Shown in pieces: positions 2,193 to 51,387 of a stretch of 64,000 nucleotides of DNA. Position 1 is the first letter of the stretch. Each line of letters begins with the position of its first letter. Made by a program: the position numbers and the translations under genes. Origin of the DNA: Bacteroidetes bacterium RIFCSPLOWO2_12_FULL_35_15 (lineage in GTDB: Bacteria; Bacteroidota; Bacteroidia; 2-12-FULL-35-15); NCBI GenBank assembly GCA_001769385.1, contig MEPB01000018.1, positions 1-64,000 on the forward strand, read 5' to 3'. The notes under the pieces are model-generated. The model saw only the letters and a list, made by a program, of their open reading frames with translations, was not told where the DNA came from and did no database searches.

Positions 2193-4070
2193 CTATTTGA
2201 CTATAAGCACCGGCACCTTCACATTGTGGCGAACAGCATCCAGAGTAGTTCCAAAAATAATATCTTTTAAAGCTCTGTGGCCATGAGCTCCCATTACCAA
2301 CAGGTCACAATTGCAGGAGTTTACAATTTCGGGGATGCTCTTTTTAGGATTTCCAAAGCCAAGTTTTACCTGAATTTTAAAACCTTGTGATGTTAATTCA
2401 GTTTTGTATTTGTCTAAATTTATGCTATCCGATTCAGTTTCAAAGTCCTTTATTTCATGTCCCATCATCCTTGCACCGGCTGTTTCAACAATGTGAATTA
2501 AAATATATTCGGCTTCTTTTCCTCCTTGCGCAATAGCATTACTAATGGCATTGCTATCAGTGGTGCTAAAATCAACTGTTATAGCAATACGATTATATTT
2601 ATTCTCCATTTTGATCTTTAATTCTTCCGGTTTTCCATCGGGAACCTGATGCTGTTTTTGTTTGGCTTTGTTTATAATTGGTTTAAATGTAACATAGAAT
2701 AACAAAACTCCGGCTCCAACTGCAAGTGGAACGGCAGTAAGATAAATAATTAACGGGCTTTCGGAAGTATGAATCCATTCTAAAAGTGTATCAATAACCA
2801 ATTTTGCATTCAGACTTACAATAATAGCTGCAACTATCCAGGCAAGTATTTTCAGCCACATTTTACTTGCAAATTCACCCATTAACTTTTTATCGCTTGT
2901 CAGGTGAATAAGTGGTATTACAGCAAATCCTAATTGCAAACTTAAAATTACCTGGCTTAAAATTAAAAGACTTCCTAAAGATTCCTCACCTAATACATAG
3001 ATGGTAATGAATGCTGGGATAATGGCAATTAAACGTGTAATAAGTCTTCGAAGCCAGGGCTGAATACGAAGATTCAGGTACCCTTCCATTACAACTTGTC
3101 CGGACAATGTTCCGGTGAGTGTAGAGCTTTGGCCGGCAGCAATCAGTGCTATCGCAAACAATGCCGGTGCAAGACTTGTTCCTAATACATCCTGAAGTAA
3201 CTTATGAGCATCCTGAATTTCTGAAACATGTACTAAACCTGTACTGAAAAAAGCTGCGGCTGCAAGAATTAAAATTGCCGCATTAATGAATAAAGCAGCA
3301 TTTAGAGCAATAAAAGAATCAATAAAATTAAACTTGATTGCTTCTTTTATTCCTTGCGGGGTTCTTTCAATTTTACGCGTTTGTACCAGGGAGGAGTGCA
3401 AATACAAATTATGCGGCATAACGGTAGCTCCGATTATCCCGATAGCAATATATAACGCATTGTTGTTAGGAATAGAGGGGATAAAGCCTTTTAAAAGTTC
3501 AATCCCATCAGGCTTTGCAAATATTAATTCAGCGATAAAAGCGAAACCGATAGTAGCAACAAGCACCAAAATAAATGCTTCCATTTTTCGGATCCCGTAA
3601 CGTTGCAAAACCAATAATAATAATGTGTCGGCCACCGTTATTGAGATACCGGCCAAAAGCGGAATGTGAAATAATAACTGTAAACCTATTGCCATACCTA
3701 TTACTTCGGCAAGATCGCATGCTGCGATAGCAATTTCAGCTAAGATCCAATTTAAAAAATTAACTACCGGAGGATAAGATGCTCTTGAAGCCTGTGCTAA
3801 ATCGAGTCCGCGAACCAATCCTAATCTGGCACTTAAGCTTTGTAATAACAGGGCCATCAAATTACTCATAACTAAAACCCAAAGTAATTTGTACCCAAAC
3901 TGGCTTCCTCCGGCAATATCAGTTGCCCAATTGCCGGGATCCATATAGCCAACACTCACCAGATAAGCCGGACCCATAAAGGCAAAAAGTTTTTTTCCGA
4001 AGCTAAGATTTTTGGTGATCACAACACTTTCGTGAACCTCTGATAATGATTTGTCTGAATTAGGTTTCAT
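2193..4070 (-). CDS. mntH: Nramp Mn2+/Fe2+ transporter fused to a universal stress protein domain
   Basis: Inner-membrane proton-coupled divalent metal importer. Residues 25-470 are the Nramp core with about eleven hydrophobic segments. The metal-site motifs are both present: DPGN at 44-47 in TM1 and MPH at 218-220 in TM6. Residues about 492-625 are a cytoplasmic UspA domain with an intact nucleotide-binding signature G-x2-G-x9-G-T (GAHG at 594-597, GT at 607-608), so it probably binds ATP. Ordinary MntH proteins are about 410-450 residues, so the C-terminal domain is a true extension. The gene starts one base after the stop of the upstream MntR-type regulator, hence one operon. Mn2+ is inferred as substrate from the regulator type; Fe2+ is possible. 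Confidence 0.93.
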   Translation of the reverse strand: MKPNSDKSLSEVHESVVITKNLSFGKKLFAFMGPAYLVSVGYMDPGNWATDIAGGSQFGYKLLWVLVMSNLMALLLQSLSARLGLVRGLDLAQASRASYPPVVNFLNWILAEIAIAACDLAEVIGMAIGLQLLFHIPLLAGISITVADTLLLLVLQRYGIRKMEAFILVLVATIGFAFIAELIFAKPDGIELLKGFIPSIPNNNALYIAIGIIGATVMPHNLYLHSSLVQTRKIERTPQGIKEAIKFNFIDSFIALNAALFINAAILILAAAAFFSTGLVHVSEIQDAHKLLQDVLGTSLAPALFAIALIAAGQSSTLTGTLSGQVVMEGYLNLRIQPWLRRLITRLIAIIPAFITIYVLGEESLGSLLILSQVILSLQLGFAVIPLIHLTSDKKLMGEFASKMWLKILAWIVAAIIVSLNAKLVIDTLLEWIHTSESPLIIYLTAVPLAVGAGVLLFYVTFKPIINKAKQKQHQVPDGKPEELKIKMENKYNRIAITVDFSTTDSNAISNAIAQGGKEAEYILIHIVETAGARMMGHEIKDFETESDSINLDKYKTELTSQGFKIQVKLGFGNPKKSIPEIVNSCNCDLLVMGAHGHRALKDIIFGTTLDAVRHNVKVPVLIVK

Positions 4071-4071
4071 T

Positions 4072-4731
4072 TTATTTTTTAATGACTAAAATATTTTTTG
4101 CGACATCATTACTTATAAAAAGCGTATCTTTTTTGTTAACGATTATTTGCAATGACCTGTCAAATTCAACAATATCTTTGATTTTGATTTCATTACCTAA
4201 AACTAATCCCGATTTATCGAGAAACTGCAAAAATGCTGCTGAATGATCAACTACACCTGTCATAATAGACACATCGTTTTTTTTAAATTTTGATAATACC
4301 TGCGATTTGGAACTAATTAATTTTCCATTTGCGGTTGGAATAGGATCACCATGAGGATCTACCTTCGGAAAATTTAAAAATTTATCAATCTGTTCAATCA
4401 GTTTATCCGAATTAATATGCTCCAATTGTTCTGCTACATCATGAACTTCGTCCCATTTAAAATCCAACTTCTCTACCAAAAACATTTCCCATAACCGATG
4501 TTTCCTGATGATGTTAAGCGCCACTTTTTCGCCTTTTGTAGTAAGCGTAACTCCTTGATATTTCTGATAATTTATTAATTTTTTATCGGAAAGTTTTTTA
4601 AGCATATCTGTTACTGATGCGGCTTTGGTACTCATCCTTTCCGCAAGCGCATTTGTAGTGACCACATCACCTTCCTGCTCAATAAGTTTATAAATAGCTT
4701 TGAGATAGTTTTCTTCCGTGAATGAGTGCAT
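4072..4731 (-). CDS. mntR: DtxR/MntR-family metal-dependent transcriptional regulator
   Basis: Metal-sensing repressor. The N-terminal winged helix (ALAERMSTKAASVTDMLKK and the following wing) is followed by the metal-binding/dimerisation domain (HRLWEMFLVEKL, DEVHDVAEQLEH) and a C-terminal FeoA/SH3-like domain (GNEIKIKDIV to the end), the three-domain plan of IdeR/DtxR-type proteins. The reading frame is open to 4761, but a -7 element at 4751-4758 would place transcription start downstream of that ATG. The ATG at 4731 (MHSFTEENYLKAIY) fits the family start; 4740 is the alternative. It is co-transcribed with mntH and is divergent from the TonB receptor, sharing the palindrome at 4788-4805. 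Confidence 0.9.
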   Translation of the reverse strand: MHSFTEENYLKAIYKLIEQEGDVVTTNALAERMSTKAASVTDMLKKLSDKKLINYQKYQGVTLTTKGEKVALNIIRKHRLWEMFLVEKLDFKWDEVHDVAEQLEHINSDKLIEQIDKFLNFPKVDPHGDPIPTANGKLISSKSQVLSKFKKNDVSIMTGVVDHSAAFLQFLDKSGLVLGNEIKIKDIVEFDRSLQIIVNKKDTLFISNDVAKNILVIKK

Positions 4732-4750
4732 CTGAAACATATATTTAAGA

Positions 4751-4758
4751 CAAATATA
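4751..4758 (-). promoter_or_regulatory. -7 element of the mntR-mntH operon
   Basis: TATATTTG on the minus strand matches TAnnTTTG. It excludes the ATG at 4761 as the likely start and favours 4740 or 4731. Confidence 0.5.
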
Positions 4759-4787
4759 CAAAAAAAATATATTTTAATAAAAATATA

Positions 4788-4805
4788 TTTTAGACTAGTC
4801 TAAAA
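4788..4805. promoter_or_regulatory. Candidate MntR/DtxR operator (perfect 18-bp palindrome)
   Basis: TTTTAGACTAGTCTAAAA is a perfect palindrome, and its symmetry continues outward as AAATATATT arms with one shift. Size, symmetry and TTAG...CTAA half-sites resemble DtxR-family boxes. It lies between the divergent -7 elements at 4751-4758 and 4813-4820, where a -33 box would be, so one bound repressor could silence both directions. Confidence 0.7.
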
Positions 4806-4812
4806 ATATATT

Positions 4813-4820
4813 TATCTTTG
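4813..4820 (+). promoter_or_regulatory. -7 element of the TonB-dependent receptor gene
   Basis: TATCTTTG matches TAnnTTTG, 24 nt before the ATG at 4844 and 7 bp after the palindrome. The expected -33 region is occupied by the operator. Confidence 0.55.
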
Positions 4821-4843
4821 TATAAATAATAATTAAGTACGAC

Positions 4844-7126
4844 ATGAAATTATTCTTACTCTTAAACCTGTTTTTTGTTATATCTGTTAACGCTCAAACC
4901 GGAAGCATAAAAGGAAAAATCACAAGTGATAATAAACCTGTTGAGTTTGTGAGTGTGGGATTAACGGGAACTCAATACAATGCATTCACCGATAAAGACG
5001 GAGCATTCGAGATCTCTCAGATACTTTTCGGAAAGTATGAATTTCAAATAGTACTAGTTGGGTATCAAAGAGTAAAAAAGGAAATTACAATTGATAAATC
5101 CTTGCCATTCGTTATCAGTCAAAATATAATTTCGATGGACAATCGCCTGAATGAAGTTGTAATTACAGGCACTATGAAAGAGATTTCGCGTTCAGAATCT
5201 GCTATACCTATTGAAATTCTGACTCCAAAATTATTTTTAAAAAATCCTACCCCAAGTTTATTTGAATCCATGCAAATGGTAAATGGGGTGCAACCACAAC
5301 TTAATTGTAATGTATGTAACACCGGAGATATCCATATCAATGGCATGGAAGGTCCGTACACTATGATAACAATTGACGGAATGCCTATTGTGAGTGCGCT
5401 ATCAACTGTTTACGGTTTAAGTGGAATACCCAACAGCCTGGTAAACAGAATAGAAGTGGTGAAAGGGCCGGCAAGCACACTTTATGGCTCAGAAGCAGTT
5501 GGAGGATTGATCAATGTAATTACAAAAAATCCATTGAGTGCACCACTACTAAGTGTGGATGTTATGGCAACTTCTGATAAAGAGTATAATCTTGATCTGG
5601 GTGTAAAAACAAAATTAAAAAAATCACATTCATTGCTTGGAATCAATTATTTTAATTTTCAGAATGTGATGGATAAAAATGGAGATAATTTCACCGATGT
5701 TACGCTTCAAAATCGTATTTCAGTCTTTAATAAATGGAGTTTTGAACGCAAGGAGAATAGAATTGCAAACATTGCCGCACGTTTTGTTTATGAAGACAGA
5801 TGGGGAGGAGAAACTCAGTACGAAAATAAATTCAGAGGCACCGATAGTGTCTATGGCGAATCTATCTATACAAGCCGTTACGAGTTAATAGGAGTTTATC
5901 AGTTGCCCTTTAAAAAAGAGCAGGTGTTTCTGCAATATTCATTTAACAACCACAATCAAAATTCTTATTATGGTACAACCTCCTATATGGCACAACAGAA
6001 CATTGCCTTTGCGCAAATGTACTGGAACAAGACGATCAATAAAAATGCTGACCTATTGATAGGAGTTCCTTTTCGTTATACTTATTATGATGATAATACA
6101 CCCGGTACTGAAAGTTTAGATACACTAAATCTTGAAAACAAACCTCAAAATACCTACTTACCGGGAGTATTTGTTCAAAGCAATTTTAAATTTAAAAAAC
6201 TTACCACACTTGCCGGTTTGCGTTATGATTATAATACTGATCATGGGGTTATTTTATCACCACGTTTGGCGTTTAAATATGCACTAAATGATAATAATAT
6301 TTTCAGATTGAGTACAGGAAACGGTTACAGGGTTGTAAATTTATTTACTGAAGACCATGCCGCACTCACAGGTGCAAGAGAAGTTGTAATTAAAAACAAT
6401 TTAAAACCTGAAAAATCATGGAATGCAAATCTGAATTATCAACGGTTTTTCATTTTAACAAATGCTTATATTGGTGTAGATGCCAGTTTATTTTACACTT
6501 ATTTTACAAACAAAATAATTGGTGATTTTACAACAGATGCAAGTAAAATCATTTTTGATAATCTGGATGGGTATGCCATTTCAAAAGGCATCGCATTAAA
6601 TTTGGACATTGCTATTACAAATGGATTGAAAGCCATTATTGGTGGGACATACATGAAGGTTTACAGCGAAGAAAAAGATGCTTCCGGAAAATATGTACGA
6701 ACCCCTCAAATGCATGCTCCTGATTTTTCGGGTAATTTTTCATTGAGTTATACATTTAGCAAATTAGGTGTAAGTCTTGATTATACCGGAAACATTAAAA
6801 GTCCAATGTATTTACCTGTTGTTCCAAACGATTACCGACTGAAACGATCACCCTGGTTTACCATACAGAATATTCAATTAAGTAAAAAATTAAAAAAGGG
6901 AATTGAATTTTATGGCGGGGTAAAAAACATTTTTAATTTCACTCCAAGCGATCCTATTTTAAGGGCTTTTGATCCCTTTGACAAACACATTACCGAAAAC
7001 AATCAGAACAATTATACATTCGATCCATCTTATAATTATGCTCCTATGCAGGGGAGGAGATTTTTTATTGGTATTCGGTATAATTTGTACAAAGATTCTT
7101 TCCGGCAAAAATCCGATAAAAATTAA
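4844..7126 (+). CDS. TonB-dependent outer-membrane receptor, candidate Mn/Fe receptor
   Basis: Outer-membrane importer energised by TonB. A signal peptide (1-18, ending in NAQ) precedes a carboxypeptidase-regulatory-like beta domain (about 20-100), a plug domain (about 105-230, with IDGMPIVS and IEVVKGPASTLYGSEAVGG) and a 22-strand barrel to residue 760 with a terminal aromatic strand. The plug contains C155-x2-C158 and H164 (CNVCNTGDIHING), a possible metal-contact motif. The gene is divergent from mntR-mntH and shares the palindromic operator, so it is inferred to bring Mn2+, or an Fe or Mn chelate, across the outer membrane. Other TonB substrates (haem, siderophore, cobalamin) cannot be excluded from sequence alone. 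Confidence 0.92.
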   Translation: MKLFLLLNLFFVISVNAQTGSIKGKITSDNKPVEFVSVGLTGTQYNAFTDKDGAFEISQILFGKYEFQIVLVGYQRVKKEITIDKSLPFVISQNIISMDNRLNEVVITGTMKEISRSESAIPIEILTPKLFLKNPTPSLFESMQMVNGVQPQLNCNVCNTGDIHINGMEGPYTMITIDGMPIVSALSTVYGLSGIPNSLVNRIEVVKGPASTLYGSEAVGGLINVITKNPLSAPLLSVDVMATSDKEYNLDLGVKTKLKKSHSLLGINYFNFQNVMDKNGDNFTDVTLQNRISVFNKWSFERKENRIANIAARFVYEDRWGGETQYENKFRGTDSVYGESIYTSRYELIGVYQLPFKKEQVFLQYSFNNHNQNSYYGTTSYMAQQNIAFAQMYWNKTINKNADLLIGVPFRYTYYDDNTPGTESLDTLNLENKPQNTYLPGVFVQSNFKFKKLTTLAGLRYDYNTDHGVILSPRLAFKYALNDNNIFRLSTGNGYRVVNLFTEDHAALTGAREVVIKNNLKPEKSWNANLNYQRFFILTNAYIGVDASLFYTYFTNKIIGDFTTDASKIIFDNLDGYAISKGIALNLDIAITNGLKAIIGGTYMKVYSEEKDASGKYVRTPQMHAPDFSGNFSLSYTFSKLGVSLDYTGNIKSPMYLPVVPNDYRLKRSPWFTIQNIQLSKKLKKGIEFYGGVKNIFNFTPSDPILRAFDPFDKHITENNQNNYTFDPSYNYAPMQGRRFFIGIRYNLYKDSFRQKSDKN

Positions 7127-7143
7127 ACTAATAAATACCTTTT

Positions 7144-7794
7144 TTATGGAGCCAAACGCTCAATTTTCCAATTCAAATTTTCGTGTGTATATAAAATCCG
7201 ATCGTGCAAGCGGCTTTCACGACCTTGCCAAAATTCAATAGTGGAAGGCTTCAAAACATAACCACCCCAATGTGGCGGACGAGGGATATTTTCATCCGGA
7301 AATTTTATGGCAAGCCGTTCGTGTTCATCTTCCAGCATTTTTCTGTTTGCTATTACTTTACTTTGATTGGAAGCCCAGGAACCAACTTTATTTCCGTACG
7401 GGCGGGATTTAAAATAGCTGTCGGATTCTTCTTCGGTTTGTTTTTGTATAACACCTTCAATGTGCACCTGACGGCCTAGCTCGGGCCAGAAAAATAGCAA
7501 TGCAGCATTAGGATTTGCCGCTAATTTTTCACCTTTCCTACTGGTATAATTGGAGTAAAACACAAATCCATTTTCATCAAAATTTCTTAATAAAACAATT
7601 CTGGATGACGGTTTACCATCAATTGTAGCAGTGGAGACCGACATCGCATTCGGTTCCTGTATTTTAGCTTCTATAGCTTCTTTCAGCCATTTTTCAAATT
7701 GAGAAAAAGGATTGCGATATACATTTTTTTCGTCTAATGATTCGCTTGAAAAATCATGACGGAGTGAATTGATATAAGCGTTTAAGTCTTTCAT
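7144..7794 (-). CDS. pdxH: Pyridoxamine 5'-phosphate oxidase
   Basis: FMN enzyme that oxidises pyridoxamine/pyridoxine 5'-phosphate to pyridoxal 5'-phosphate, the last step of vitamin B6 synthesis and salvage. Family features are all visible in the 216 residues: NAMSVSTATIDGKPSSRIVLLR, FYSNYTSRKGEKL, the FMN/substrate stretch SRPYGNKVGSWASNQS, and the C-terminal signature EFWQGRESRLHDR followed by W..ERLAP at the end. Length is normal. It is convergent with the receptor gene (17 bp between stops) and has a -7 element 22 bp upstream. Confidence 0.96.
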   Translation of the reverse strand: MKDLNAYINSLRHDFSSESLDEKNVYRNPFSQFEKWLKEAIEAKIQEPNAMSVSTATIDGKPSSRIVLLRNFDENGFVFYSNYTSRKGEKLAANPNAALLFFWPELGRQVHIEGVIQKQTEEESDSYFKSRPYGNKVGSWASNQSKVIANRKMLEDEHERLAIKFPDENIPRPPHWGGYVLKPSTIEFWQGRESRLHDRILYTHENLNWKIERLAP

Positions 7795-50274: not shown

Positions 50275-51387
50275 TCAAAAATTAATTTTTGATTCTATGG
50301 TATTATTTTTAATTGAAAATACCTTAAAATCCGCATTTCCTTTGTTGAATATTTCAGCCAGTCGTGTAGGATGTGTATCGGTAATAAATAATTGTCCGAA
50401 ATTATCGCTGCTCACCAGTTCCATTAATTGTTTTACACGCAGGTCATCCAGCTTATCATAGATATCATCCAATAAAAGGATAGGAGTAACCTCTTTAATA
50501 TTTTTTATGTAATCAAATTGAGCTAATTTCAAGGCAATTAAAAATGATTTTTGCTGTCCCTGAGAAGCATATTTCTTTAATGGATGGGTATTTATAGTAA
50601 ATTCCAGATCATCCTTGTGAATTCCAACAGTAGTATATTCCATCATTCTATCACGCTTCAATGCATTTTCCAATACTTCTTTAAATCCAGATGCGTTCAA
50701 ATGGGAATTATATTCTATTCCAACCAATTCGCGGCCTCCTGATATCAATTCATAATATTTTTGAAATATCGGAATAAACTTAGTGATGAAATTTTTTCGG
50801 GTATCATATACTTTTATACCATAAGCAACCAATTGATCATCCCATATTTCTAAGGACTCCTTTTCGAATTTTCCGCTATCAGCAATTTGTTTCAGCAATG
50901 CATTGCGCTGCGAAAGCACTTTGTTGTAATTGATCAGATTTTCAAGGTAAGCTCTGTCGAACTGAGCTATTACACTATCAATAAATTTCCTGCGACTTTC
51001 GCTGCCTTCAGTAATTAGCTCAGAATCAGCCGGAGAGATCATTACCAAAGGGAATAATCCAATATGATCAGCAAGTCGTTGATATTCCTTTTTATTTCGC
51101 TTGAATTGTTTTTTCTGGTTGCGTTTTAACCCGCAATAGATCTCTTCCTCTTTAGCATCGGCATCAAATATTCCTTGAATAAGGAAGAAAGGGGCTTCAT
51201 GTAAAATATTTTGGGTATCGATCGGGTTAAAAAAACTTTTACAAAAGGAGAGATAATGAATAGCGTCCAGAATATTAGTTTTTCCTTCCCCATTATTGCC
51301 CGTAAGACAGTTAACGCGACTATTAAAATCCAATTGTGCCTCCGGATAATTCTTGAAATTCAGTACAGAAATTTTTTTTAAATGCAT
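50275..51387 (-). CDS. recF: DNA replication and repair protein RecF
   Basis: ABC/SMC-like ATPase of 370 residues acting in RecFOR gap repair. Walker A GNNGEGKT at 30-37 in VNCLTGNNGEGKTNIL, the signature KYASQGQQKSFLIALKLAQF, and Walker B PILLLDDIYDKLD. N-terminal MHLKKISVLNFKNYPEAQLDF is standard. Length is normal. Co-directional with the DUF721 gene. Confidence 0.96.
   Translation of the reverse strand: MHLKKISVLNFKNYPEAQLDFNSRVNCLTGNNGEGKTNILDAIHYLSFCKSFFNPIDTQNILHEAPFFLIQGIFDADAKEEEIYCGLKRNQKKQFKRNKKEYQRLADHIGLFPLVMISPADSELITEGSESRRKFIDSVIAQFDRAYLENLINYNKVLSQRNALLKQIADSGKFEKESLEIWDDQLVAYGIKVYDTRKNFITKFIPIFQKYYELISGGRELVGIEYNSHLNASGFKEVLENALKRDRMMEYTTVGIHKDDLEFTINTHPLKKYASQGQQKSFLIALKLAQFDYIKNIKEVTPILLLDDIYDKLDDLRVKQLMELVSSDNFGQLFITDTHPTRLAEIFNKGNADFKVFSIKNNTIESKINF

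Follow-up and report, generated by a model that had tools for sequence, protein, structure and literature searches.

A TonB-dependent receptor with a conserved MntR-type operator as a candidate for manganese import across the outer membrane of Bacteroidota

The first 64,000 nucleotides (nt) of contig MEPB01000018.1 from Bacteroidetes bacterium RIFCSPLOWO2_12_FULL_35_15 (assembly GCA_001769385.1), in the following called the window, contain a gene for a metalloregulator of the MntR/DtxR family. The regulator gene is separated by 1 nt from the gene of an Nramp-type metal importer, and in the divergent direction a gene for a TonB-dependent receptor is located (Table 1), directly followed by a convergent open reading frame (ORF; 7144-7794, minus strand). 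Between the two transcription units lies a perfect palindrome of 18 base pairs (bp), flanked on each side by a -7-like element; both elements were named after TAnnTTTG, which we take to be the -7 consensus. The comparison of related genomes supports that the receptor belongs to an MntR-type regulon as one of its conserved components and is not merely a neighbour of the regulator, because the box is also kept at receptors far from any regulator gene.

The core of the operator (4790-4803) ends 9 nt before the -7-like element of the receptor and is 31 nt away from that of the regulator, so that the palindrome overlaps more directly with the promoter spacer on the receptor side. The genus alignment shows the element on the regulator side at a similar position in most of its rows. 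The window has one other perfect 18-bp palindrome, TCAAAAATTAATTTTTGA, at 50275-50292. The 16-mer TTTAGACTAGTCTAAA occurs only once in the genome of 5.39 Mb if up to two mismatches are allowed, and the other 16 places show three mismatches. With a degenerate pattern a second strict box, TTTAGGTTAACCTAAA, was detected in the same genome (G000 C19:256705-256720; L124, L170) upstream of a lipoprotein-like ORF of 81 amino acids (aa).

Among 36 genomes of the genus, eight possess an orthologous receptor (58-100% identity) and one more a fragment. The box is present between receptor and regulator in seven of the eight, with diverged flanks, and in these seven loci the regulator is followed by an Nramp gene in six cases and by a ZIP transporter gene in one (L017). 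For a broader view 395 genomes of the class were searched by protein similarity alone, and 124 of them hold the receptor family at an E value of 1e-90 or better. The 119 loci analysed are all from outside the genus; the truncated matches in G280 and G215 were left out. Within -250 to +60 of the receptor, TTAG-N6-CTAA was found at 104 of the 119 loci, compared to a mean of 1.3 and a maximum of 4 in dinucleotide shuffles, and ten other spacings or half-sites occur at 0-2 loci each. The box exists in 60/65 loci with a divergent regulator and in 44/54 without an adjacent one. An element of the type TAnnTTTG starts 5 nt (22 loci) or 9 nt (19 loci) past the core in 41 of the 104 boxed loci, which places the box in the promoter spacer; at 30 of the 104 such an element was not found. 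A second set (L041-L120), collected with patterns that contain the motif of the receptor described below, comprises 79 usable loci out of 80 (L120 left out). Here the box stands at 70/79 receptors versus 9/516 other upstream regions of the same loci, and at 40 of 49 receptors lacking an adjacent regulator. It is absent from all 22 loci of paralogous receptors (about 29% identity). A chance palindrome is rejected, since the box is kept at the receptors far above the shuffles and the other upstream regions. The data support a conserved DtxR/MntR-type box that presumably belongs to the receptor promoter itself, and co-regulation of the receptor with the regulator and the importer is very probable. 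An earlier note on this DNA had described the perfect palindrome between divergent -7 elements and had proposed a common operator control of receptor and regulator-Nramp operon, naming conservation among orthologues as a check; the palindrome is exact, the box is kept (7/8 in the genus, 104/119 in the class), also where no regulator is adjacent, and it marks mntR-mntH elsewhere.

To which genes the box belongs can be seen best where receptor and regulator are apart. Eleven such genomes contain 34 strict-box sites, with 17 for the backward control pattern. Nine of the 34 sites stand at receptors, eight at mntR or mntH units, two at di-haem oxidoreductase genes and one at a ZIP gene; the remaining 14 include 13 that are situated inside ORFs and are likely due to chance. 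In the Chitinophaga genome G042 there are no sites besides one at mntR-mntH and one at the receptor. In 20 genomes of this kind a box is found not more than 1.5 kb upstream of 14/17 MntH-type Nramp genes, and in the same distance at 0/19 feoB genes and 0/4 genes of other Nramp-family members. One of the three boxless MntH-type genes (G036) has a box further upstream, before a fabH-mntR-mntH unit. Since boxes stand at MntH-type Nramps and at none of the feoB genes, the regulon appears to be marked as one of MntH-type metal import rather than of Feo iron import, and a Feo-type iron regulon is rejected. Furthermore, in three genomes the box precedes genes similar to di-haem oxidoreductases (L145 1208-2404, L148 1252-2493, L152 2495-3733). 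For L145 the domain PF06537 was confirmed and the next gene encodes a Rieske protein; the mntR unit of this locus, one of the eight mentioned above, also faces the di-haem oxidoreductase gene. The regulon may have a further branch connected with peroxide or redox functions. An odd operon was observed at L147 (2465-4999), in which the box precedes a fabH-like gene (ACP synthase III), followed by regulator and Nramp.

The regulator passes the test for the DtxR/MntR family (PF01325 65.6 bits, cutoff 26; PF02742 112.7, cutoff 27; FeoA PF04023 31.9, cutoff 23). The scores for the MntR equivalogs are below the cutoffs (NF047407 161.3/350, NF003025 71.6/138 and NF008273 55.7/153 bits). The nearest solved chains are 5zr4, SloR 5cvi, 8pvt and ScaR 3hrs. 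The binuclear site of Bacillus subtilis MntR consists of D8, E11, H77, E99, E102 and H103. In the regulator of the window H78, E101, E104 and H105 are present, and N8 and K11 replace D8 and E11. The same pattern prevails among 77 aligned regulators, with H78 in 76 (one gap), E101 in all 77 and E104/H105 in 73, Asn at the position of the MntR Asp in 66 and Lys at that of the Glu in 72. At the position of E101 MntR has a Glu as well, and DtxR and IdeR have a Cys. Because neither the equivalog cutoffs are reached nor the binuclear-site ligands complete, the protein is called MntR-type by context and not an equivalog. This regulator presumably binds the box. In a genus relative, regulator and Nramp form one open frame of 464 aa (L015, upstream of 1468, minus strand), which appears to be a regulator-transporter fusion or an effect of assembly or a frameshift.

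The Nramp protein of the window passes the MntH test (NCBIfam NF001923, 599.5 bits, cutoff 430) and its ORF contains the DPGN and MPH motifs; the Met of the MPH motif is known to be important in Nramp proteins. The transporter domain (PF01566, 5e-134, residues 48-402) is followed by a UspA domain (PF00582, 1.7e-21, residues 492-625). Judged from the frames of MntH-type Nramps in the 20 related genomes, 14/17 of which are 624-657 aa and three 451-472 aa long, the fusion with UspA looks common. At the 119 class loci the importer beside the regulator is a ZIP protein in 33 and an Nramp in 6. In the regulator tree at least four changes of the Nramp label are forced by supported branches, and Nramp and ZIP are read as having replaced each other several times beside the regulator. 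In this tree the label 'nramp(remote)' is a default for regulators near box sites (L164 included) and plays no part in this argument.

The receptor itself, which has PF13715 and PF07715 domains, passes the test for TonB-dependent receptors (PF07715, 64.3 bits, cutoff 23.9) and shows the Cir/BtuB fold over residues 103-748 with Z scores of about 36. Its AlphaFold model has a predicted local distance difference test score (pLDDT) of 80.4 and a predicted template modelling score of 0.77, and is closest to Cir (2hdi; Z 36.3, root-mean-square deviation 3.0, 545 residues aligned) and BtuB (1nqf; Z 35.7, deviation 3.0, 533 aligned) from Escherichia coli, the identity to these closest solved folds being only about 15-20%. 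A siderophore or B12 receptor is rejected, as all 25 listed families score below their cutoff, the best being TIGR01779 with 103.5/599.7 bits.

The family alignment is built from 117 of the 119 class sequences (at least 640 aa) and the window receptor, in total 118, and was compared with 15 paralogues. The second set was excluded from counts of motif conservation because its search patterns contain the motif, and the class set was used instead; a further alignment (A3) holds 38 of 40 loci, every second of the 80, without L057 and L059. C155 and C158, the only cysteines of the window receptor, are conserved in 118/118 aligned sequences, CxxC exists at 119/119 loci and the motif of the family reads C[NSGA][VI]C. 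All 15 paralogues have D and S at these positions. H370 (118/118), D417 (118/118), H505 (117/118) and H467 (111/118) are likewise family-specific. The paralogues carry Q, E and Q at the first three of these positions and mainly Y or F at the last, so that C155, C158, H370, D417 and H505 are all five missing there. The C-x2-C in the plug, which had been pointed out in the earlier note, is thus invariant. H164, which the note had included, occurs in only 86/118, its place being taken mostly by Ser, Arg or Gln in the other sequences, and is rejected as part of a conserved motif; by conservation, H370, D417 and H505 are better candidates for ligands. Together with the CxxC they may form a capture site or redox gate. 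In the model the residues 154-161 and 504-510 have pLDDT values below 50 and give no usable geometry of the motif.

Table 1 Features of the regulator-receptor locus in the window
Feature	Position	Strand	Remark
MntH, Nramp-type metal importer of 625 aa, UspA domain at the C terminus	2193..4070	-	second gene of the regulator operon
MntR/DtxR-family metalloregulator, 219 aa from ATG	4072..4731	-	N-terminal helix-turn-helix, dimerisation domain, FeoA/SH3-like domain
TATATTTG, -7-like element before the regulator-Nramp operon	4751..4758	-	sequence; TAnnTTTG as consensus
Operator, perfect 18-bp palindrome TTTTAGACTAGTCTAAAA, core TTAG-N6-CTAA	4788..4805	.	exact in sequence; kept upstream of receptor homologues
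-7-like element TATCTTTG of the receptor	4813..4820	+	sequence; starts 9 nt past the operator core
TonB-dependent receptor of 760 aa, carboxypeptidase-regulatory-like domain at the N terminus	4844..7126	+	PF13715, PF07715
Codons of C155-N-V-C158, plug	5306..5317	+	family alignment
Codon of H370, family-specific barrel residue	5951..5953	+	118/118, family alignment
Codon of D417, family-specific barrel residue	6092..6094	+	118/118, family alignment
Codon of H505, conserved TEDHAAL stretch	6356..6358	+	117/118; modelled at low confidence

These observations lead to the following proposal. When metal is plentiful in the cytosol, metal-loaded dimers of MntR would bind the palindrome, which overlaps the receptor spacer and flanks the mntR-mntH promoter, and both units would be switched off. 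If metal becomes scarce, the block would be lifted from both promoters; the TonB-powered receptor would then move the metal over the outer membrane and the Nramp protein over the inner membrane. We consider it fairly likely that the receptor is an energised outer-membrane importer of Mn2+ (perhaps Mn/Fe) that is repressed by metal-loaded MntR. Mn2+ is also the probable main cargo, with manganese plus iron as the main rival, and the receptor is a strong candidate for an outer-membrane manganese gate. Only tentatively can this be extended to a Bacteroidota-wide family of dedicated outer-membrane manganese importers, which would be characterised by an MntR-type box, an invariant Cys pair in the plug that captures or redox-gates the ion together with H370, D417 and H505, and a swappable Nramp or ZIP partner, with one shared operator in the lineage of the window.

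The passage of manganese through the outer membrane is described as poorly known, with only a few cases named in a review (PMC9334652). MnoT of Burkholderia resembles the present proposal in its TonB-dependent import of manganese over the outer membrane and differs, as far as the descriptions can be compared, in that it is fed by the type VI secreted manganese binder TseM (PMC9334652). MnoP of Bradyrhizobium also serves the outer-membrane step of manganese uptake; by its description it is a passive channel and not a TonB receptor (PMC9334652). The closest published parallel is the MntR-regulated CQNC-type TonB-dependent receptor of Stenotrophomonas maltophilia with its thioredoxin-fold partner pTFP, orf2357-orf2358 (PMC13217887, May 2026). 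Both systems have a receptor with CxxC in the plug beside mntR and mntH and an MntR box. In S. maltophilia the thioredoxin-fold gene is situated downstream, as in a part of the Bacteroidota loci but not in the window, and receptor and mntH have separate boxes of 25 bp, with mntP in the module (PMC13217887); the window has one shared palindrome. The motifs there, compared by description and not by sequence, are CQNC in the receptor and CAPC in the partner (PMC13217887), versus CNVC in the receptor of the window. The present family is associated with a ZIP or an Nramp importer and widely spread in one class. Its differences from the CQNC receptor concern the motif, the sharing of one operator, the kind of importer and the range of taxa. 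In the main text of that paper 'bacteroid' has no match (PMC13217887), and a search of the open-licence literature gave no paper on an MntR-controlled receptor in Bacteroidota. Present in 124/395 class genomes, with an operator that is defined, few residues to mutate and isolates for testing, the family represents a widespread candidate for outer-membrane manganese import. Receptor and operator stay the same where Nramp has repeatedly been exchanged for ZIP beside one regulator, and this amounts to a natural experiment on the metal that is served.

Several points weigh against the proposal. The eighth genus orthologue (L018, 58% identity) has no box in the 94 nt available upstream before the contig end, and an exact box near the receptor is missing at 15/119 class loci and 9/79 loci of the second set, although in four of these nine (L051, L053, L055, L059) it stands further upstream of the apparent operon. 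Thiolates are unusual ligands of Mn2+. The regulator does not retain the full binuclear site of B. subtilis MntR, with Asn for Asp and Lys for Glu. The boxes at the di-haem oxidoreductase genes mean that the regulon is not restricted to import, and ZIP and ZnuA-type neighbours are compatible with zinc or iron too. In addition, DR2539 of Deinococcus, a DtxR-type protein that shares the Lys in place of MntR Glu11, the SH3-like domain and the repression of mntH via an inverted repeat, is reported to repress with Mn(II) or Fe(II) and thus to be a dual sensor; an outer-membrane receptor is not part of that report (PMC3327659). Of the coordinated metal uptake over two membranes proposed in the earlier note, the shared control is supported, while manganese as the cargo stays an assignment that the Mn(II) and Fe(II) sensing of DR2539 leaves less certain (PMC3327659).

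For the capture step an explanation compatible with the proposed manganese import is that the CxxC forms a disulfide and acts as a redox switch or plug clamp served by a periplasmic thioredoxin-fold protein. We regard this as possible but somewhat doubtful. Downstream of the receptor a thioredoxin-fold gene is found in 20/119 class loci, with the motifs CKYC, CRYC, CQFC, CKFC, CKIC or CTVC, and in 17/80 loci of the second set, and the low pLDDT of residues 154-161 would leave room for it, no geometry being readable. Most loci, the window included, are however without such an adjacent gene, and a disulfide alone would not call for the conservation of H370, D417 and H505, which equals that of the cysteines. 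For the receptor of the window, a search of the same genome for such a partner gave only generic best matches with about 30% identity. For the S. maltophilia pair the disulfide idea has been proposed (PMC13217887).

It is rather unlikely that the same circuit serves for sensing and importing iron, be it Fe2+ or a chelate, or manganese and iron together. Nramp and ZIP proteins are generally able to carry Fe2+, and the boxes at di-haem oxidoreductase genes would suit an iron regulon, but box-bearing feoB genes (0/19) are missing in the 20 receptor-bearing genomes in which 14/17 MntH-type Nramps have a box, and the regulator has Glu where DtxR and IdeR have Cys. From the literature, the iron reading gains from DR2539, a regulator that shares the Lys and for which both Mn(II) and Fe(II) support binding to the mntH promoter (PMC3327659), and from the listing of MntH among ferrous importers (PMC10434265).

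An import of zinc or another metal, with the ZIP and ZnuA-type neighbours as true partners, is clearly improbable. It would agree with the ZIP gene after the regulator in 33/119 class loci, with the ZnuA-type binding protein and ABC-3 permease beside some receptors and with Cys, His and Asp as suitable zinc ligands. Zinc uptake is, however, usually controlled by the Fur-family protein Zur and not by DtxR-family regulators, and within the clade to which the window belongs the position beside the regulator is taken by either Nramp or ZIP. Moreover, ZIP proteins such as ZupT import manganese as well (PMC9334652).

Finally, although the palindrome flanks the regulator promoter and genes of the DtxR family are often autoregulated, it is extremely improbable that it serves autoregulation only and that the divergent receptor gene lies beside it by chance, as 84/103 receptors without adjacent regulator (44/54 and 40/49; the sets may share species) are boxed and TAnnTTTG follows 5 or 9 nt past the core in 41/104, and the boxes at regulator-free receptors refute this reading as a general account.

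Relatives of the locus on plasmids comprise, among the best 40 of 1315 matches, only distant TonB receptors of 22-28% identity; two plasmid records match the thioredoxin-fold protein. Some receptors of the family adjoin a ZnuA-type binding protein and an ABC-3 permease. One family receptor has in its vicinity an ABC-3 metal permease that carries, as a fusion, a metal-binding domain of the DtxR type (PF02742; L099 4096-5376); this fusion may sense metal at the transporter. In 6/80 loci a small ORF (c6, e.g. L050 7488-7862) with several His and no Pfam match is located directly upstream of the receptor and possibly encodes a metal-binding exported protein.

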